Below, one piece after another: positions 2,934 through 32,483 of a stretch of DNA of 32,483 bases. The stretch is taken from positions 1 to 32,483 of the IMG/VR virus record IMGVR_UViG_3300044732_003033, one strand, 5' to 3'. This DNA comes from a virus. The notes beneath the pieces were generated by a model. It was not told the origin of the DNA. It did no database searches and saw only the letters and a program-made list of their open reading frames with translations. Position 1 is the stretch's first letter, and every line of letters begins with the position of its first letter. The translations under genes were made by a program, and so were the position numbers.

Positions 2934-3941
2934 ATGACTATTTACACATCTTCAGCGACCATTGACAAGATGGCGCCGGGACTCTCAACAGCCGTTTCAT
3001 ACGTTGCCGCACAGGCATTCGACCCGAACGCGCTGACTACATTGTCTGCAATGACTCCGGACTCAGGCCGTATCTCCACTCGTGGAACATCTACGGCCGC
3101 AAAGAAGAAAGCAGCAATCGTGGAAGCAGACGCACTCGTTGGCGAGTCCAAGTTCGCACGCCCTAATGGCGAAGACTATTACTCACGCAAGTGGGGCGAC
3201 CATGATGACGTCATGGTTCTGCGCGCTGCTCGTGACATGAGCGGCTATGTGCTTCTTTACGGCGCACCCGGGTGCGGCAAGACTGCACTCGTCGAAGCGG
3301 CATTCAACGATCAGCCTGGCGGTGTTTACACTGTCCTCGGTTCAGGTGACACTGAAGTTTCCGACCTTGTTGGTGGATACGTTCAGACGCCAAGCGGCGG
3401 CTTCGTTTGGGAAGACGGCCCACTGCTCAAGGCAGCCGAATCTGGCGGCGTGCTTCTAATTGACGAAGTTGGTTTGATTGACCCTAAGGTTCTCTCAATC
3501 ATCTACGGTTTGATGGATGGTCGACGTGAGTACACAGTCACAGCCAACCCCGAGCGCGGGACTGTCAAGGCCAAGGACGGCTTCTACGTCGTCGCGGCGA
3601 CAAACCCTAATGCGCCTGGCGTGCGACTATCCGAAGCACTTCTTTCGCGCTTCACTGTGCAGGCAGAGATGACTACTGATTGGTCACTTGCGCGCAAGCT
3701 CGGTGCACCAACTCCGATTGTGACTGCCGCTCAAAACCTGAGCAAGAAGCAGCAATCAAACGAAGTATCATGGGCACCACAGATGCGCGAACTCTTAGCC
3801 TTCCGCGATCTGGCAAAGACCTTTGGCACCAAGTTTGCGATCGCGAATCTCCTGGCTGCCGCGCCTGAGCTCGACCGACCAATCGTTGCCGACGTCTTCA
3901 CCCGCGTGTTTGGCGAGGAATGCCGACCAGCGAAAATCTAA
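2934..3941 (+). CDS. MoxR/CobS-type AAA+ ATPase
   Basis: 335 aa. Promoter TATAGT at 2893-2898 starts 7 bases after the previous stop. Walker A GAPGCGKT is at residues 110-117, Walker B LLIDE at 174-178, sensor-1 Asn in ATNPN near 224, and an arginine-finger candidate in LLSRF near 239. The first ~80 residues are a phage-specific extension with a Lys-rich patch. MoxR-class ATPases remodel partners that carry a VWA domain, and such a protein is the next gene (4090). The pair resembles CobS/CobT of cobaltochelatase but with no cobalamin genes nearby, so the phage function is unknown. Confidence 0.9.
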   Translation: MTIYTSSATIDKMAPGLSTAVSYVAAQAFDPNALTTLSAMTPDSGRISTRGTSTAAKKKAAIVEADALVGESKFARPNGEDYYSRKWGDHDDVMVLRAARDMSGYVLLYGAPGCGKTALVEAAFNDQPGGVYTVLGSGDTEVSDLVGGYVQTPSGGFVWEDGPLLKAAESGGVLLIDEVGLIDPKVLSIIYGLMDGRREYTVTANPERGTVKAKDGFYVVAATNPNAPGVRLSEALLSRFTVQAEMTTDWSLARKLGAPTPIVTAAQNLSKKQQSNEVSWAPQMRELLAFRDLAKTFGTKFAIANLLAAAPELDRPIVADVFTRVFGEECRPAKI

Positions 3942-3950
3942 TGTTCTGAA

Positions 3951-3978
3951 GGTCCGGGCCTGTAGGTTGGCCCGGGCC
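3951..3978 (+). terminator. Hairpin terminator candidate after the AAA+ gene
   Basis: GGTCCGGGCC (3951-3960) pairs with GGCCCGGGCC (3969-3978) around an 8-base loop, with one G-U. A weak pyrimidine-rich tail follows instead of a clean T run. Confidence 0.6.
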
Positions 3979-3990
3979 TTCGACTCTTAC

Positions 3991-4057
3991 TTGGGAATGT
4001 ACAGTACACTCCACAAACCTACGACGAGCCCAGGCGATAAACTTGGGAACGTATAAT
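3991..4057 (+). promoter_or_regulatory. Tandem array promoters upstream of the VWA gene
   Basis: Two copies of the array promoter occur 52 bases apart: TTGGGAATG then TACAGT (4000-4005), and TTGGGAACG then TATAAT (4052-4057). Only the second has the standard leader and gene (4090). I see no gene between them, so the first may add a longer leader or be a remnant of a lost cassette. Confidence 0.65.
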
Positions 4058-4089
4058 AACTTCATACCCCATACGAAAGGACAAACACT

Positions 4090-5895
4090 ATGGGACATTT
4101 CAATCCAACCCGACAAACCCGAGCCGAGGTCACGCCCTCTGAATGGCTCAGCGTTGGAGCACAAATTGGTCAGCTGACCAACGTGTTCTCAGGACGCAGT
4201 GATGTCATCGCGTACGTAGGACCAGGTGCCGGCCAAGGCGGTGCACCTGCATCGTTCACCCCAGCAACTGCGGAAGTCGAAGTCAATGTTGACATAGCCT
4301 TTGGCAAGGGTGTGACGCCCGCTGACATTGGCGACTTGCGCGAACGTTCAAACCAATTCGAATGGCCAGTTGCAACAGGAGCAATCTTCCATGAAGCACT
4401 TCACGCGAAGTACTCCCGTTGGGACATGGAAGCTGCATACAAGGAGCTTTCACCTGCTGAGTTTCGCGCGCTTATTCTTCTCGAGGAAGGACGCATCGAA
4501 TCTAATGGCGTGACAATCGCACCTGAGAATGCAGGGTTCCTCCGTGCGTGTGCTCTACGCATCGTGCTCGCTGACTTCGCTGAGGACGTCGCTGGCGAGT
4601 CTGACACTGTCGCGGCAGCCACACTTGCAGCGCTTTCGCTTGCTCGTGTAGACGCTGGCTCACTTGAGTTCGAAGACGTCGAAGCAATTGAACGTGCAGT
4701 GCTCGGCAAGATTAGCAAAGACAAGCTCGACGCGCTTCGCTCAATTTGGCTACAAGCACAAGAGTATGCAAACCATTACGATGCACGAGGCATGTATGAC
4801 CTCGCTCGTGAGTGGGTGCGCCTCGTTGATGAGCAAGCCGAAGAGAATGGTGACCAACCTTCAAAGGGCGAGCCACAAGGCTCAGGCGGAATGATGACTG
4901 CCGATGAACTCGGCGAGTTTCTTGGCGAGCTTACTGAAGCGATTGAGAGCGGAGCTGACAGTGCAACCATTGGTTCGCACGAGCAACTCGGTGACCAACA
5001 GACAATGGAAGACTGGAAGAACGAAGTTACCGAACGTGGCAAAGCAAGCCAAGAAGAAAAGGAACACAAGGCCACAGCAGACGAAGTCTTTGGCAAAGGC
5101 ACAGGCCCAATGCCTGGCAGCCCAACGCGTTCACGCTTAGTCGAAGAGCGCCAGCCCACAGGACCTGAGCGTGCAGCGGCGGTCAAGGTGGCAGCCATGC
5201 TTGAGAAGGCGAAGTATCGCGAACGTGACGAGGTGGACGTCCACTCGATCGTTCCTCCCGGTCGCTTGCGCACTCGCGCAATGGTTCAAGGTGCAGCGCT
5301 CAAGTCGAAAGGCATCATGACTCAGACAGAGCCGTGGCGCCGCACAGTGCGCAAGCACACGGACGACCCAACTTTGAACGTCGGTGTCCTTGTAGACATC
5401 AGCGGCTCAATGAGCGACGCGATGGTGCCGATGGCGGTTACCGCGTGGGTGCTCTCAGAAGCGGTGAGACGCGTTCAAGGACGTGCGGCGATGGTGTACT
5501 ACGGGGAAAGCGTATTCCCTACGCTAAAGCCCGGACAACACCTCGACAAGGTGAATGTCTACAGCGCGCCAGACGGAACGGAAAAGTTCAACACAGCATT
5601 CAAGGCGGTCAACGGTTCGCTCAACTTGCTCAATGGCTCCGGAGCGCGGCTGCTTGTTGTGGTCAGTGACGGGTGCTACACTATGCAAGAGAAGCAAGCA
5701 GCCAGGACGTGGCTCGAACGTTGCAAGCAGTCAGGCACAGGCGTGCTGTGGCTCGCGAACGATGACGGGCGAGAGGCAAGGCGAATCACTGATGGCACGG
5801 GCGCGAAGTTGCTCGTGAACATGGTGAACCCTGTGACCGTCGCGTCAGAGATCGGCTTGACAGCGGCACGCGCCTTGACGGGTGCGTCCGCCTAA
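4090..5895 (+). CDS. CobT-like protein: HEXXH metallopeptidase-like region plus VWA domain
   Basis: 601 aa. Leader ACGAAAGGACAAACACT before ATG. Residues 101-105 are HEALH, followed about 30 residues later by LLEEGRIES, giving a HEXXH...E pattern as in the N-terminal part of CobT-like/VWA-linked peptidases. A long acidic, Gln/Gly-rich linker spans about 245-345. The C-terminal VWA domain has a MIDAS motif DISGS at 436-440 and VVSDG later. It is the probable partner of the adjacent MoxR-type ATPase. Whether the peptidase site is active, and its target, cannot be told here. Confidence 0.88.
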   Translation: MGHFNPTRQTRAEVTPSEWLSVGAQIGQLTNVFSGRSDVIAYVGPGAGQGGAPASFTPATAEVEVNVDIAFGKGVTPADIGDLRERSNQFEWPVATGAIFHEALHAKYSRWDMEAAYKELSPAEFRALILLEEGRIESNGVTIAPENAGFLRACALRIVLADFAEDVAGESDTVAAATLAALSLARVDAGSLEFEDVEAIERAVLGKISKDKLDALRSIWLQAQEYANHYDARGMYDLAREWVRLVDEQAEENGDQPSKGEPQGSGGMMTADELGEFLGELTEAIESGADSATIGSHEQLGDQQTMEDWKNEVTERGKASQEEKEHKATADEVFGKGTGPMPGSPTRSRLVEERQPTGPERAAAVKVAAMLEKAKYRERDEVDVHSIVPPGRLRTRAMVQGAALKSKGIMTQTEPWRRTVRKHTDDPTLNVGVLVDISGSMSDAMVPMAVTAWVLSEAVRRVQGRAAMVYYGESVFPTLKPGQHLDKVNVYSAPDGTEKFNTAFKAVNGSLNLLNGSGARLLVVVSDGCYTMQEKQAARTWLERCKQSGTGVLWLANDDGREARRITDGTGAKLLVNMVNPVTVASEIGLTAARALTGASA

Positions 5896-6366: not shown

Positions 6367-6430
6367 GGAAAGTATAATGGTGGCGTGACGTCATTTACCG
6401 AATGAGTTGAAAAACTCTGGAAGTTATAAT
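6367..6430 (+). promoter_or_regulatory. Two close array promoters, the first without an obvious gene
   Basis: TATAAT at 6373-6378 is followed 6 nt later by a GTG (6385) that opens only a six-codon frame ending at 6405. TATAAT at 6425-6430 then drives the structured RNA described next. Confidence 0.6.
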
Positions 6431-6436
6431 GACATC

Positions 6437-6680
6437 ATCGCTTCTCAGTCCGCTGAGAATAACATAGCAACTACCCAGTTGCGCACGCAAAGATAAGGCT
6501 CTCAAGAAGATAAGGCTCTCTGCTGCGACATCCTCTTCGACGTAACTAGTTCGTCGTACGTTCCCTCCAGCATGATCCGTCCTCTGCTCACGATCCGCCC
6601 TCGCCTGCGTCGAAAACACGTCGACGGACAATGGGTGGTGGTGGTAGCTCCACTGGCTGTGTTATTCTCAGCGAACTGAG
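6437..6680 (+). ncRNA. Structured RNA candidate, copy A of a two-member family
   Basis: Promoter TATAAT at 6425-6430 predicts a start near 6437. No plausible protein is present. Arms 6452-6468 and 6656-6672 form a 17-bp helix with a single G-U, extended outward by CTCAGT (6444-6449) with ACTGAG (6675-6680). Inside are two copies of GATAAGGCTCT (6492, 6509), two of ATCCGYCCTC (6575, 6593), a hairpin CGTCG/CGACG (6608/6622) and a GGTGGTGG stretch. Copy B at 12204-12429 keeps these motifs and the helix while changing nearly all helix bases. Function and family unknown. Confidence 0.85.
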
Positions 6681-6722
6681 GAATGTAAAATGATTCCACA
6701 CCTACCGAAAGGACACAACACA

Positions 6723-12180: not shown

Positions 12181-12203
12181 ACTTGGGACTGTATAATGAT
12201 ACT

Positions 12204-12429
12204 GTTCCGGTTCGCTGGATACCACATAATCAGCCACTTGGTTGGTGTTCGCTGTCACTGTCACGATAAGGCTCTGCAGGAAGATAAGGCTCTTCGTTCG
12301 TCCGCGGCGAAAGAATCCGTCCTCCTCTCACGTATCCGTCCTCCTCTGTTACACTCCCGAACGTCAGCTCCCGACGGGGAAGAGTGGTGGAGGTCGCCCC
12401 TCCCGATTGTGTGGTATCCCGCGACTCGG
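12204..12429 (+). ncRNA. Structured RNA candidate, copy B
   Basis: Promoter TATAAT 12192-12197. Arms GGATACCACATAATC (12217-12231) and GATTGTGTGGTATCC (12405-12419) pair over 15 bp with one G-U; CCGGTTCGC (12207-12215) and GCGACTCGG (12421-12429) extend it. GATAAGGCTCT occurs at 12265 and 12283, ATCCGTCCTC at 12315 and 12334, hairpin CGTC/GACG at 12362/12373, then GTGGTGGAGGT. The motif order is the same as in copy A. The 3' arm runs into the GGGA box of the next promoter. A weak open frame across it has no leader and is not credited. Confidence 0.85.
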
Positions 12430-12446
12430 GACTGTATAATGATTCT

Positions 12447-24362: not shown

Positions 24363-24950
24363 ATGACGACAATCATCGCAGTTCAAGGTCAAGAATGGGC
24401 AGTCGTGGGATTCGACTCTCGTGTGACTGAAGAAGGTGGTCGATCATACACACTCGGGAGAGGATCGGCCAAGGTCGTCAAGAACGGTCAGTACCTACTT
24501 GGTGCCGCTGGAGACGTGAGAGCCATCAACATTTTGGCGTACGCGTTCCAGCCACCAAAGGCGCTCGACTTGACAGGCATACGGCTTGATCGATTCATGA
24601 CAAGTAAGTTTGTTCCAGCGCTGCGTGAGTGTTTTGAGGATCACGGATACGCGGTGAAGGAGTCAAAGGAACAGGCCCAACACGGATCAACGGTACTCGC
24701 GATCGTGAATGGTCAGATCTATGAAATTGACGAGGACTACGCCTGGGTACGTGATATGACTGGCATATACTCATTCGGCAGTGGAGGCGACTATGCAATC
24801 GGTGCGATGTACACAAAGTCAGGTGGCGAAATTTCAAACCTAAACATGTCAGACGTCCAGAAGCTTATTCGCGACTCACTACATATTGCGGCTAAACTTG
24901 ATATTGGATCAGGTCCGCCGTTTCACATTCTCAGCCAATCAGCGCGATAA
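24363..24950 (+). CDS. Proteasome-like N-terminal-nucleophile hydrolase (HslV/Anbu-like)
   Basis: 195 aa. A diverged -10 (TACGAT, 24350-24355) is 7 nt before ATG, so leaderless. After removal of Met the chain starts TTIIAVQG, as HslV does (TTIVSV). Counting Thr as 1, an Asp is at position 17 (GFDSR) and a Lys near 36 (GSAKVV), matching the catalytic Thr1/Asp17/Lys33 set. FGSGGDYAIGAM corresponds to the conserved GSGG loop. No unfoldase gene is adjacent. It could mature or degrade proteins alone or with a host ATPase; activity is inferred. Confidence 0.82.
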   Translation: MTTIIAVQGQEWAVVGFDSRVTEEGGRSYTLGRGSAKVVKNGQYLLGAAGDVRAINILAYAFQPPKALDLTGIRLDRFMTSKFVPALRECFEDHGYAVKESKEQAQHGSTVLAIVNGQIYEIDEDYAWVRDMTGIYSFGSGGDYAIGAMYTKSGGEISNLNMSDVQKLIRDSLHIAAKLDIGSGPPFHILSQSAR

Positions 24951-28087: not shown

Positions 28088-29503
28088 ATGGGTAAAAGCA
28101 TGATGGAACACCTGGCAATGCTGTCAGAGGAAGAACGTCGCGCTGTGCTCGATGGGCTTGATATGGATCAACTCGTATGGGACTGGAAGGCATGGGCTCG
28201 ACCAGAACAACTCCCTCCCGCGAATGACGATTGGGCTGTGTGGTTGTACCTTGCTGGACGTGGTGCCGGTAAAACAAGAAGTGCGGCTGAATGGGTACGC
28301 GACATGGCGAAACGTACCGATCGTGGCCAATTGAGATTTGCGTTGGTTGCGCGTACTGCAGCTGACGTACGTGACGTTATCGTCGAAGGTGAATCAGGAA
28401 TCATCAGCGTATCACCTCCAAGTGAGAAGCCGCTGTACGAACCATCGAAACGTCGTTTGACGTGGCCAAATGGAAATACAGCAACATGCTTTACTGCTGA
28501 CGAACCTGATGGTCTTCGTGGTCCTCAATTCCATTACGCTTGGGCTGACGAAATCGCGGCATGGCGTCAAACACCTGACGCTGCTGGCATGACGTCGTGG
28601 GACAACCTTCGTGTGGCAACACGTCTTGGTAAATCACCACAAATCATCTGCACAACGACGCCAAAGCGCGTACCTGTTCTCTATTCATTACTTGCTGAAG
28701 CGGATAAGACTGGCCGCGTCGTTATTTCACGAGGATCGACTCTCGATAACGCAGGCAACCTATCAAACGCGTACCTTGAAGCAATTACAGGAGTATATGC
28801 GGGTACGCGCCTAGCAGCGCAAGAGCTGTATGGCGAAATGTTGTCAGACGTCGAAGGTGCCCTTTGGGTAATTGAATTGATCGAACGCAGTCGCGAAACA
28901 GGATTTCCATCGAACACTCCGTTGCGCGTAATCGGTGTCGACCCATCTGTCGCTGAGAATCCACGCGACGAATGCGGTATCGTCGTTTGTGCGTCTACAG
29001 GCGAACGCGACCTGTATAAACGACACGCTTGGGTGCTTGAAGATGCATCAATTCATGGATCGCCAGAGCAGTGGGCAAACAAGGTCGTTGAGATGGCGCG
29101 GAAATACTCATGCCCTGTCGTCGCTGAAGTTAACCAAGGCGGTGCACTCGTACGCAATGCGATCAACACGATCGACCCAAATGTCAAGGTTCTTGAAGTA
29201 CATTCGAAGTACGGTAAAGCGCTACGCGCTGAGCCCATCACACTGGCGTATGAACAGAATCGTGTGCATCACATTGGCTACCTTGGAGACCTTGAATCTC
29301 AGATGTGCGCTTGGATTCCAGGCGAAGGTAAGTCGCCTGACAGAGTAGACGCTCTCGTTCACGCGCTCACTGCGCTGCTTATCAAGCCACCACCAGGATT
29401 CGTAGGTGGCACAATTACTGCTCGCTCTCTCGCAGCAAGACGTCTTCCTCCATTCAGAGGTAATAACGGTGGAGGAACATCGCGTGTGTTTATACCACGG
29501 TAA
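28088..29503 (+). CDS. terL: Terminase large subunit
   Basis: 471 aa. TATAGT at 28076-28081 is 6 nt before ATG, so leaderless. Walker A GRGAGKT at 57-63, Walker B WADE with Asp-Glu at 154-155, coupling motif TTTPKR near 190. The nuclease domain has Asp 285 (GVDPS), Glu 347 (VAEVNQGG) and Asp 421 (SPDRVDAL). It cuts and pumps DNA into the procapsid at the portal. Confidence 0.95.
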   Translation: MGKSMMEHLAMLSEEERRAVLDGLDMDQLVWDWKAWARPEQLPPANDDWAVWLYLAGRGAGKTRSAAEWVRDMAKRTDRGQLRFALVARTAADVRDVIVEGESGIISVSPPSEKPLYEPSKRRLTWPNGNTATCFTADEPDGLRGPQFHYAWADEIAAWRQTPDAAGMTSWDNLRVATRLGKSPQIICTTTPKRVPVLYSLLAEADKTGRVVISRGSTLDNAGNLSNAYLEAITGVYAGTRLAAQELYGEMLSDVEGALWVIELIERSRETGFPSNTPLRVIGVDPSVAENPRDECGIVVCASTGERDLYKRHAWVLEDASIHGSPEQWANKVVEMARKYSCPVVAEVNQGGALVRNAINTIDPNVKVLEVHSKYGKALRAEPITLAYEQNRVHHIGYLGDLESQMCAWIPGEGKSPDRVDALVHALTALLIKPPPGFVGGTITARSLAARRLPPFRGNNGGGTSRVFIPR

Positions 29504-29507
29504 GATG

Positions 29508-30005
29508 ATGCGGGTAACCACTACAAGGAGACAACAATGAATGAGAATGAGTCTGAAACACCAATCAACGTAGATGAGTCTGCTGTTGAGGAAACACCAA
29601 TTATCGAAGATCAGCCTGTCAAGCAACAGCCTGCACCTGCACCTGTACCTACTCCTGCTCCAGCTACTGACGCTGCTCCTGCTGCGAAAAACGCTGCGGT
29701 AAGTGGCAATGCGGTAGACGATGTCTTGCTCTCTCAGTGTGTGTACAAGAACATGTATGCGCGCAAGTCTTTGAGTGTACATCACGTGCAACGTCGTCTT
29801 GTCGAGCGAGGCTACACCAATGCGGTAGGCGATAAGGACGGTTGGTACGGTGACCTCACAAAGGACGCTGTAGCTTCCTTCCAAAAGGCACACGGGATTG
29901 AAGGTGCGGGTACTATGAACGCGGCCACATTGGTAGCACTCTTCGATGGCGATGAGAACGTACACATAGTGGCGTAGTGCGGTGAGACCCCTATGCGGGT
30001 AACCA
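29508..30005 (+). repeat. 13-bp direct repeats flanking the 29537 gene
   Basis: ATGCGGGTAACCA occurs at 29508-29520 and 29993-30005, just outside the gene on both sides. The spacing fits insertion of the gene by recombination, or paired regulatory sites. Confidence 0.55.
29537..29977 (+). CDS. Peptidoglycan-binding-domain protein with acidic/Pro-Ala linker
   Basis: 146 aa; ACAAGGAGACAACA before ATG. Acidic first 35 residues, then a Pro/Ala-rich linker (PAPAPVPTPAPATDAAPAAK), then a C-terminal PG_binding_1-like domain (HHVQRRLVERGY, GWYGDLTKDAVASFQKAHG, GTMNAATLVAL). No catalytic part or signal peptide. It could be a virion wall-binding or capsid-decoration protein. Confidence 0.8.
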   Translation: MNENESETPINVDESAVEETPIIEDQPVKQQPAPAPVPTPAPATDAAPAAKNAAVSGNAVDDVLLSQCVYKNMYARKSLSVHHVQRRLVERGYTNAVGDKDGWYGDLTKDAVASFQKAHGIEGAGTMNAATLVALFDGDENVHIVA

Positions 30006-30081
30006 TATATACATATACGTCGAACGCATACATTGACACACAGCTACATATGCGGTATGCGGTATGCGGGACATAGAAAAA

Positions 30082-30105
30082 GGCACCTCCCATTCGGAAG
30101 GTGCC
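30082..30105. terminator. Bidirectional terminator between convergent genes
   Basis: GGCACCT (30082-30088) and AGGTGCC (30099-30105) with AAAAA before and CTTTT after, so it can stop transcription from both sides. Confidence 0.85.
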
Positions 30106-30120
30106 CTTTTCGTTTATCGC

Positions 30121-30315
30121 TTAGGCGTTCAATCCCCAGGCGTTCTTCCACATCTGAGCGATGACCTCTGCCTGTGATTCGTTTACACATGGAAGGTTGT
30201 ATTGGAATGAGTCTGATGAGTCACCAGTAGGTGATGACATCCAAATCACCACGCGATTTCCTTGGGCGTAGGCCGCGATGACTGCGCCTTTCATTGTGAC
30301 TGTTGGTGTGTTCAT
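30121..30315 (-). CDS. 64-aa protein, the only minus-strand gene seen
   Basis: Reads from 30315 to 30121. Leader on that strand is GATGAAAGGACAAATACA, the same type as in the array. Promoter TATAAT at complement 30369-30374. MNTPTVTMKGAVIAAYAQG start, VVIWMSSPTG middle. Convergent with 29537, sharing its terminator. Not recognised. Confidence 0.75.
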   Translation of the reverse strand: MNTPTVTMKGAVIAAYAQGNRVVIWMSSPTGDSSDSFQYNLPCVNESQAEVIAQMWKNAWGLNA

Positions 30316-30368
30316 TGTATTTGTCCTTTCATCATTACCTAGGCAGGCTGCCTTGGCTTGATGAATTC

Positions 30369-30374
30369 ATTATA
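30369..30374 (-). promoter_or_regulatory. -10 box of the minus-strand gene
   Basis: On the minus strand GTTGATATAATG, with a start predicted near 30361 and a leader of about 45 nt. The GGGA box of the + strand array is absent. Confidence 0.6.
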
Positions 30375-30377
30375 TCA

Positions 30378-30800
30378 ACTGATTCTGCTTTCGTACATCA
30401 TTTCGCAAAGTTTTTTTCTGGCCCTGTGTTCTCATGGCCTACGTCCTTGACACGTGCCTGTCACACGCGCCTGTCACACGCGCACACGCACGCACACGTG
30501 CACACACGCACACATTAGTTGACACCTTGTATCTCACATAGACATAGACGTCTTGACATGCATACAACGCGTCTTCCTGCAAAAAAATTCACGCGCAGAT
30601 AGTCGAAAGCGAAATGCAAGTAACTTTTCTAAACAAAAGCCCGAAACACTTGAACACGGCCCGAAAATAGGCGACTGGCGTCTCGCAGGCCAAACCCACT
30701 TACCATAATGTACTAATTCCTCCGTTTCGTACAATCCCCAAAGTAGTTCTAACGGCAAGGTACAATTTCACGTGTATCGTTCACATTTTTCCGCTGCACT
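30378..30800. other. Intergenic region with alternating purine-pyrimidine tract
   Basis: No gene of useful length here. GCCTGTCACACGCG is repeated back to back (30456 and 30469), then an alternating CA/CG tract runs to about 30513, typical of Z-DNA-forming sequence. Farther on are TTGACA (30519) without a good partner and -10-like boxes near 30704 and at 30761. This is the largest gene-free stretch near terminase, so it may hold a replication or packaging signal. Confidence 0.45.
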
Positions 30801-30817
30801 GATGATACAGTAAGCCT

Positions 30818-31348
30818 GTGCCGAGGCAGATAGTGAACCTTCCCGCCGCAGAGTGTGATTTTCTGCGCGTCCTGATGAATGAAGAGCTCTATGCTCGAGC
30901 GCAAGAGCTTCACAGTGTGGGTTGGTCTGTGACAGCCATTGCGAATGCCTTTGACCCTCCCAGGCCACGTTCAACCGTCCACACATGGCTGTCCCGACCA
31001 CACACAATCACTCCCTCAAGAACTATCCCTTTTCCTTCCTCCTCTTCTTCGAATTCATTAATAGCCGCCGCGGAAAATAGCACTACGTCAAGGCCAAAAA
31101 GAGAACGACGAGTATACACTCCCTCTTCTCCAGCTCTTCTGGCAACAGAAAAGGCTCGAATCAATAAGATCGCGCCATTGGCTCGTCGCTATAGAGCTCG
31201 CGCAAATCCGAACGGCGTCTATGCCTCCGCAAACGACGAGCTAACGAGTATCGCTCACAAAGCGTACTCGAGAGGCGTTGCGATCTCTGAGCTTGCCGCC
31301 GCGGCAGGCGTCACGTACCGAGCAATGGCCCGCAGGCTAGGTAAGTAG
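30818..31348 (+). CDS. Double-HTH protein in the small-terminase position, leaderless GTG
   Basis: 176 aa. TACAGT at 30806-30811 is 6 nt before GTG. The N-terminal half has RAQELHSVGWSVTAIANAF and STVHTWLSR, a homeodomain-like HTH. A Ser/Pro-rich basic middle (RPKRERRVYTP) follows, and the end (YSRGVAISELAAAAGVTYRA) is a second HTH. The position between terL and portal fits a DNA-recognition (small terminase) role, but sequence alone does not prove it. Confidence 0.7.
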   Translation: MPRQIVNLPAAECDFLRVLMNEELYARAQELHSVGWSVTAIANAFDPPRPRSTVHTWLSRPHTITPSRTIPFPSSSSSNSLIAAAENSTTSRPKRERRVYTPSSPALLATEKARINKIAPLARRYRARANPNGVYASANDELTSIAHKAYSRGVAISELAAAAGVTYRAMARRLGK

Positions 31349-31357
31349 AGTAAAGCT

Positions 31358-31738
31358 ATGAAGATTATATATGACCTGTTTCCAGCACAGGCACTTGTCA
31401 CAGCACCTAACCTCGTGTCACGTGACATTTACGCAGAGCTCCAGGTTACGGACATTAAGCGTTTTGAGCACTCGCGCCGAGTTGAGCCTGTCCGCATTGT
31501 TCTTACTGAAGACATGATCATGGTTGCCGCGGACGGATCGAACGGCCCAATGCTGATCTTTCGAGAGAAGTATCTTCCTGACACGCTTCTTCTCGACAAG
31601 AAAGGCACCACGCGCCTGATCACAGTCAACGGAAAAGCACTTGCGTTCCGCAAGGATAGTGGCTGCGGCTGCGGAAGCATGTTGAGAGCGTGGAATCCAT
31701 ACAAGACACTTTACTCAATGAAAGACCCTACACAATGA
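31358..31738 (+). CDS. Conserved pre-portal protein with Cys cluster
   Basis: 126 aa, 9 bases after the previous stop. Beta-rich first part (VEPVRIVLTEDMIMVAADG); the end SGCGCGSMLRAWNPY resembles a signature I recall in actinophage genes just upstream of the portal. Function unknown. Confidence 0.75.
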   Translation: MKIIYDLFPAQALVTAPNLVSRDIYAELQVTDIKRFEHSRRVEPVRIVLTEDMIMVAADGSNGPMLIFREKYLPDTLLLDKKGTTRLITVNGKALAFRKDSGCGCGSMLRAWNPYKTLYSMKDPTQ

Positions 31739-32028
31739 TATTTAGCTTTTTAGACGGCATTATTTTAACTCTTGCCGTGTTTCGCATCACAAGACTAATC
31801 ACAACTGATGAGATTGTCTCAAAAATCCGCGAAAAAATCTGGAAAAAGTACCCACCACACAATGGCGGCGTTGGCTATTTGATTACTTGTGACTGGTGTA
31901 CCAGCATTTGGGTATCATCACTTGTTCTGACTGTGTATAAAATAGCTCCAACACCTGCCATCACCATTTGGGGTATATTTGCCTTGTCTGGTGCAGCAGG
32001 ATTATTGAGCCGCATTAGTCAATACTGA
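31735..32028 (+). CDS. DUF1360-like membrane protein
   Basis: 97 aa from ATG 31735, overlapping the previous stop as ATGA. RITRLITTDEIVSKIRE then CDWCTSIWVSSLV fits DUF1360, which has two or three membrane helices with a CxxC between. It commonly sits beside structural genes in actinophages. Confidence 0.78.
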   Translation: MIFSFLDGIILTLAVFRITRLITTDEIVSKIREKIWKKYPPHNGGVGYLITCDWCTSIWVSSLVLTVYKIAPTPAITIWGIFALSGAAGLLSRISQY

Positions 32029-32063
32029 CCGACTAGTTCCGTTCTAGCGACGAGGAGTTTTAG

Positions 32064-32483
32064 ATGGGCGTTTTTCGCCGAGAGCAATCAAGTACAGCAC
32101 GACAGAGCACAGCCTCGTCGCCACTTACGTACTTTTCAGGTCTGACTCCCGCGCAGGCGGCAACCTACGGGACACCACGAACGATTACCGCGGCCGCAAC
32201 TCAGATCCGTCTCAATGATAAAGGCGAAGCTGAGCAATTCAAGATGCGCCGCCAGGCACCGTCTTCCGCATGGCAATCAGAAGCCTGGGAGTACTACGAC
32301 GCAATTGGCGAAATCAAGTACGCTTTTAACCTCGTGGCATCTGTTGTCTCAAGAATTCGCCTTTATGCCGCAGTAATAGAAAACCCCGCTGAAACGCCAG
32401 TACCTGTACGTAATTCAAGTACTGTCGACCAACGCCTTGCGGCCGCCGCAGAGCGCGCTCTAGCGCGCCTAGACTCAGCGTAT
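32064..32483 (+). CDS. Portal protein, N-terminal part (continues past window)
   Basis: GACGAGGAGTTTTAG before ATG 32064; 140 codons visible. MGVFRREQ start, a polar N-terminus, then AWEYYDAIGEIKYAF and VVSRIRLYAA, the pattern at the start of actinophage portal proteins. Portals form the 12-fold DNA entry channel that docks the terminase. The frame is open at the window end. Confidence 0.85.
   Translation, partial: MGVFRREQSSTARQSTASSPLTYFSGLTPAQAATYGTPRTITAAATQIRLNDKGEAEQFKMRRQAPSSAWQSEAWEYYDAIGEIKYAFNLVASVVSRIRLYAAVIENPAETPVPVRNSSTVDQRLAAAAERALARLDSAY

Follow-up and report, generated by a model that had tools for sequence, protein, structure and literature searches.

A structured RNA family with a tandem internal-loop module, inferred to homodimerise, in phages of probable actinobacterial hosts

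The window analysed here is an entire IMG/VR virus record of 32,483 bases. Its large terminase shares 85% identity with that of Actinomycetia phage DSL-LC01 (129 kb, from Dishui Lake) and about 60% with those of Microbacterium phages; because of this resemblance, the window was assigned to an actinobacterial tailed phage. Two copies of a structured RNA, A and B, were located on the plus strand amid many tiny genes (Table 1), neither of them near the terminase and portal region (28088-32483). Elsewhere, an AAA ATPase lies beside a large protein annotated as cobalamin biosynthesis in DSL-LC01 (2934-5895), and this ATPase and large-partner pair recurs across all three RNA-carrying lineages described below. 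An HslV-like peptidase gene (phrog_1040) adjoins a WhiB-like gene at 24363-24950. A promoter-like element, ACTNGGACTGTATAATRG, occurs in at least about 35 copies, all on the plus strand between 6370 and 23991, the small-gene region; none was found on the other strand of the window.

Table 1. Coordinates of RNA copies A and B in the window, and of related features in other records (record handle before the colon)
Feature	Position	Strand	Remarks
Copy A, -10 promoter hexamer TATAAT	6425-6430	+	12 nt before P1
Copy A, whole RNA	6443-6681	+	R1 172.4 bits; fold z -3.98
Copy A, P1 5' strand	6444-6468	+	
Copy A, P1 3' strand	6656-6680	+	
Copy A, P2 5' strand	6470-6477	+	partner 6632-6639
Copy A, outer module strand 1	6492-6501	+	GAUAAGGCUC
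Copy A, inner module strand 1	6509-6518	+	GAUAAGGCUC
Copy A, P5 hairpin	6519-6575	+	palindrome ACTAGT 6545-6550, loop UAACUAGUU
Copy A, inner module strand 2	6576-6584	+	UCCGUCCUC
Copy A, outer module strand 2	6594-6602	+	UCCGCCCUC
Copy A, P7 mini-hairpin	6620-6629	+	GUC-GACG-GAC
Copy A, P4 hairpin	6640-6654	+	GGUGG-UAGCU-CCACU
Copy B, -10 promoter hexamer TATAAT	12192-12197	+	8 nt before P1
Copy B, whole RNA	12206-12431	+	R1 190 bits
Copy B, P1	12206-12231 with 12405-12431	+	
Copy B, P2 5' strand	12233-12239	+	partner 12382-12388
Copy B, P3 5' strand	12241-12251	+	partner 12358-12368
Copy B, outer module strand 1	12265-12274	+	
Copy B, inner module strand 1	12283-12292	+	
Copy B, P5 hairpin	12293-12315	+	palindrome CCGCGG 12302-12307, loop UCCGCGG
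Copy B, inner module strand 2	12316-12324	+	
Copy B, outer module strand 2	12335-12343	+	
Copy B, P7 mini-hairpin	12369-12380	+	UCCC-GACG-GGGA
Copy B, P4 hairpin	12389-12403	+	GGAGG-UCGCC-CCUCC
Half version of the RNA	L129:7192-7431; G005:13292-13331	-	palindrome TCTAGA, different scaffold
Genes of the ~100-aa protein family	L125:9351-9650; L126:8514-8837; L127:8142-8465		
Genes of the ~100-aa protein family	L148:3481-3804; L129:10193-10495; L128:13444-13740		

A first-pass annotation of the window had proposed that A and B are functional structured RNAs of no known family, and the proposal was borne out. In copy A, the 17-bp closing helix (6452-6468/6656-6672) and the outer 6-bp helix (6444-6449/6675-6680) that it described were both recovered, the two P1 arms being 92% paired over 25 nt. 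None of 200 shuffles equalled the fold of copy A, and one of 200 equalled that of copy B (z = -2.94). The repeated motifs were also as described: the window has four exact occurrences of GATAAGGCTCT in all, two per copy, against a chance expectation of 0.25 even when a single mismatch is allowed, and ATCCGYCCTC is likewise present twice per copy. What the annotation overlooked is that the strands of these repeats pair with one another as a tandem internal loop; it also says nothing of the GACG hairpin or of the palindromic loop at the apex of P5, both described below. Its third motif, GGTGGTGG, did not hold as a general one, being merely a piece of the variable P2/P4 stems that is not conserved in other members. 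Translation does not account for the pattern of conservation: there is no plus-strand open reading frame of at least 60 aa inside copy A, a plus-strand frame of 84 aa overlaps copy B, and no open frame is conserved: variation tracks the base pairs, and changes of length between members break the frame.

Paired copies of GATAAGGCTCT were present in other viral contigs. Members were sought by scanning 2.9 million viral contigs with this twin motif, and a relaxed pattern gave more true members; four loci (L004, L011, L014, and L022) and nearly all later pattern matches were rejected as chance. The family comprises 13 distinct full copies of about 190-240 nt, drawn from the window plus 17 other IMG/VR records; eleven of them are additional to A and B, and covariation is strong. 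A model, R1, built partly from A and B, matched every family record that was searched over its full length, and also the later-found L148 at 127 bits. Three lineages were distinguished: lineage I (the window and the G001 and G007 groups), with a DSL-LC01-like terminase; lineage II (G003, G006, and G009, whose RNA and gene neighbourhood are matched by L148/G017); and lineage III (G002, G005, G013, and G014). Protein identity between lineages falls to about 28% for the AAA ATPase, whereas the internal-loop module is nearly invariant. Each genome carries one or two full copies, several carrying two; G005 has two plus a half version. The hosts of these viruses are probably actinobacteria.

No catalogued relative was found within the databases searched. 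An Rfam scan of the window gave no match at E ≤ 1, and in an Rfam 15 scan of seven loci with other members the sole match was a chance snoRNA hit (E 0.14) below the gathering score; GOLLD, ROOL, OLE, pRNA, 6S, and riboswitches are among the families thereby covered. Neither R1 nor a second model, R2, gave a convincing match in 11 related phage isolates, including the nearest, DSL-LC01; blastn against INPHARED returned no family member, and the exact twin motif, sought in bacterial genomes of 84,980 species, found only unrelated repeats. In 2023, Fremin and colleagues reportedly listed candidate structured RNAs from viruses in the thousands. As far as tested, then, the family is uncatalogued, but an unnamed entry in such large lists is not excluded. 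Because DSL-LC01 lacks the RNA, it must be dispensable in that lineage.

Comparison of the 13 copies supports a common predicted architecture: a long P1, a junction with P4 in one subtype, then P2, P7, and P3, and an arm of two modules capped by P5. P4 is present in lineages I and II and missing from lineage III; in type I members its loop is a UNGCN pentaloop (UAGCU, UCGCC, UCGCU, UCGCA, or UUGCU; e.g. 6645-6649 and 12394-12398). Among the 37 pairs of P1, P2, and P4, 25 have changes on both sides; 92.2% of their cells are paired, as compared to 74.7% in shuffles, and no measure was matched by any of 500 shuffles. Pairing fell to 38-44% when the partner strand was shifted by a single column. 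The 5' strand of P1 pairs with its own partner at -40.0 kcal/mol and with that of another member at only -17.4 kcal/mol, a result not equalled in 2000 permutations; partner-swap permutations of P3 and of P5 gave the same count (0/2000 each). When the arm was replaced by a short clamp, unconstrained folding of all 13 RNAs returned P1, P4 where present, P2, P7, and P3. Compensatory change of this extent shows, at the level of sequence comparison, that these elements form a functional RNA family. In L002/G002, TTTTTGTTTT stands directly 3' of the closing helix (L128, after 9866); because of this adjacency, P1 may be part of a terminator there.

The four repeated motifs proved to be the strands of a single asymmetric internal loop that recurs in tandem along one arm. 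The module reads 5'-GA UAA GGC UC U.../...A NCC GYC C UC-3', with pairs GA/UC and GGC/GYC and a U-A pair that opens the distal helix. Over 22 distinct modules 91.5% of cells are paired, and none of 500 shuffles reached the observed pairing or covariation score; pair 12-19, second in the distal helix, takes five pair types with 11 double changes. The basal A2-U28 pair is replaced by U-A in L009b and by C-G in L148, exactly the two copies with a deviant UAAGG strand, and because these changes lie in the outer modules, the first motif must pair with the second CCGYCC. At the variable position, nested pairing fits 23 of 24 cases and crossed pairing 12 of 24. Unconstrained folds of the arm formed the module fully or nearly so in L010, L001, and L002. 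A version with two UAAGGC-hexaloop hairpins is allowed by many copies and was rejected: in L148 and L009b the closing pair of the first motif is lost, their changes follow the CCGYCC strand, and swap tests were non-significant (219/2000 and 882/2000). Duplex energy alone could not establish the short helix P6 (124/2000), and the pair counts anchored on the motifs were decisive instead. As far as tested, this tandem module represents a conserved RNA motif that is new. Its spacing hardly varies (17-19 nt and 18-20 nt), suggesting that the helical phase is fixed. G005 supplies a natural one-module variant in its half version: a plain hairpin stands in place of the first module, and a single UAAGGCUCU, a single CCGUCCUC, and a P5 with its palindrome are retained; no GACG hairpin was seen in the scaffold of this half version (L129).

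Inverted repeats can merely resemble RNA helices, and P1 and P5 are inverted repeats with P5 tips like 6-bp restriction sites, as a cruciform, operator, or recombination site might have. We consider such a DNA-level element very improbable. In 17 of 22 modules the pair G7-Y25 is a G-U, which argues for RNA rather than DNA, and P1 includes several changes to G-U; the model score is strand-asymmetric (172 versus 31 bits for copy A), and the internal loops are asymmetric and non-complementary.

P5 varies in sequence and in length (21-58 nt), yet all 13 copies place a palindromic hexamer no more than 2 nt from its centre, usually in a tip of stem, U, hexamer, and stem. Six hexamers are used: ACUAGU, CCGCGG, CCCGGG, UCUAGA, CCUAGG, and GCUAGC. 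Among random hairpins taken from these genomes, the frequency of such a palindrome is 2.4%; the chance of six distinct palindromic loops, calculated post hoc, is about 2e-10. Outside P5 the count of palindromic hexamers was 5 of 1607. In the L003/L007/L012 group the stem beside the palindrome is poorly defined. Since adjacent loop bases are unable to pair within one chain, conserved self-complementarity suggests that separate chains pair, and predicted hexamer duplex energies range from -4.8 to -11.5 kcal/mol. The same argument, from palindrome switching, has been made for the OLE L9.3 and GOLLD L21a contacts (Kretsch et al. 2025; PMC12286853). Homodimerisation through the P5 loop is thus strongly inferred, from sequence alone. 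Where a genome has two copies, their palindromes differ in the window and in G005 and are identical in the G001 group, so that specificity between copies cannot be general. Separately, 6-bp palindromes are depleted about two- to threefold in L125-L130 of lineages II and III (0.005-0.007 versus 0.016 expected), which suggests restriction avoidance, though P5 retains one; the window as a whole shows no such depletion (0.0164).

The loop of P7 is GACG in all 13 copies, on stems that vary (GUC/GAC, CCC/GGG, GCC/GGC, UCC/GGA, GGC/GCC, and GAGGG/CCCUC). A GACGG-CCGUC pseudoknot was discarded because it misfits L002, L006, and the copies with CCGCC; GACG is the loop of P7 instead. In murine retroviruses, GACG tetraloops form a kissing dimer of two base pairs (PMC7357161, PMC516450). 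That the P7 loop might assist dimerisation is by analogy only a suggestion, without covariation evidence because the loop is invariant. Intermolecular loops in an RNA of phage origin also recall a packaging-motor RNA, a ring at the portal like that of phi29 pRNA. This reading is barely credible: the window copies are not near the terminase and portal genes, some genomes carry two or more different copies, self-complementary loops yield pairs and not the joining of two distinct loops seen in phi29 pRNA, and the close relative DSL-LC01 does without the RNA.

A box of the ACTNGGACTGTATAATRG type precedes copy B, and a close variant precedes copy A. Because the -10 box ends 8-12 nt upstream of the closing helix, the transcript would begin at or just before that helix. 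An independent transcript is moderately inferred, resting on the promoter in lineage I; in lineages II and III the promoter matches are weak. A leader acting in cis, whether like a riboswitch or by some other control of the downstream mRNA, with the tandem modules as a double ligand site, would account for the same-strand gene that directly follows the RNA in most members. In lineages II and III, genes for a family of ~100-aa proteins also neighbour the RNA, mostly directly or less than about 1 kb downstream and at most a few kilobases; sharing this gene makes a cis role possible there. The one family member examined had no Pfam match, and the protein is a candidate partner of the RNA. In lineage I, however, another promoter box about 4-10 nt after P1 serves the next gene, and the downstream genes are mutually unrelated. 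Neither an alternative terminator nor a helix masking a Shine-Dalgarno (SD) sequence is conserved. A cis leader is unlikely, though it is not to be dismissed.

Module strands that stay nearly invariant while the helices drift are what a protein site would produce. They would also fit an RNA that decoys or hijacks a host RNA-binding factor or the ribosome as a monomer, with the palindrome serving the stability of P5 alone; an SD-like word (UAAGG) and an SD-complementary one (UCCUC) both occur. We find this about as unlikely as a cis leader. E. coli rRNA contained no such module by model R2 or motif search, leaving rRNA mimicry unsupported there, and stability of P5 needs no self-complementary central tetranucleotide.

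The reading we favour, and hold to be probably correct, is an independently transcribed phage non-coding RNA that homodimerises and displays tandem docking modules; its transcription, dimerisation, and protein partner are inferred without experiment. The RNA would be transcribed on its own from the adjacent promoter, and two molecules would pair through their palindromic P5 loops in the manner of retroviral dimer signals, perhaps with help from the GACG loop. As many as four identical modules, held in fixed phase, would then be displayed by the dimer as a putative docking platform for a protein during infection. That the module is a protein docking site, four of which are presented by the dimer, is weakly inferred, as are the partner and function of the RNA. 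Because DSL-LC01 lacks the RNA, an accessory role (host takeover or defence evasion) may be preferred to a core step such as packaging. A more specific proposal, a homodimer with two retrovirus-like contacts whose tandem modules serve as a platform for ribonucleoprotein or multi-dimer assembly in the takeover of actinobacteria, is possible but remains tentative.

Natural RNA homo-oligomers are rare, and the phage ones known, GOLLD and ROOL, are very large and of unknown function. At about 190-240 nt, with a well-inferred structure and natural variants (six palindromes and the half version), the RNA described here opens the function of phage RNA oligomers to simple bench tests, and the ligand or protein partner of the tandem module should be retrievable.

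The HIV-1 dimerisation initiation site (DIS) likewise has a hairpin with a self-complementary hexamer in its apical loop. Its 9-nt loop has 2 nt before the hexamer and 1 nt after, and the loop of copy A is built the same way. The phage hexamer, in contrast, is not fixed in sequence, the usual loop is U plus the hexamer (7 nt), and the RNA is a short non-coding RNA of a DNA phage, not a genome. MoMuLV and MoMuSV share the invariant GACG tetraloop on a changing stem with a palindromic element alongside (PMC7357161, PMC516450), but the P7 stem of the phage RNA is just 2-5 bp and kissing has no covariation support. phi29 pRNA is also a phage RNA with intermolecular loop pairing; its two complementary loops form rings, locus and architecture differ, and there is no Rfam match. 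GOLLD and ROOL are structured non-coding RNAs of phages and prophages, of unknown function, that form homo-oligomers by kissing loops (PMC12286853); they are much larger and of other architecture, the phage RNA has no Rfam match to them, and a tandem module like the one described here was not met in the available part of that source. As far as tested, the mode of working inferred for this RNA is like that of known homo-oligomeric phage RNAs, while its sequence and architecture are unrelated to theirs.
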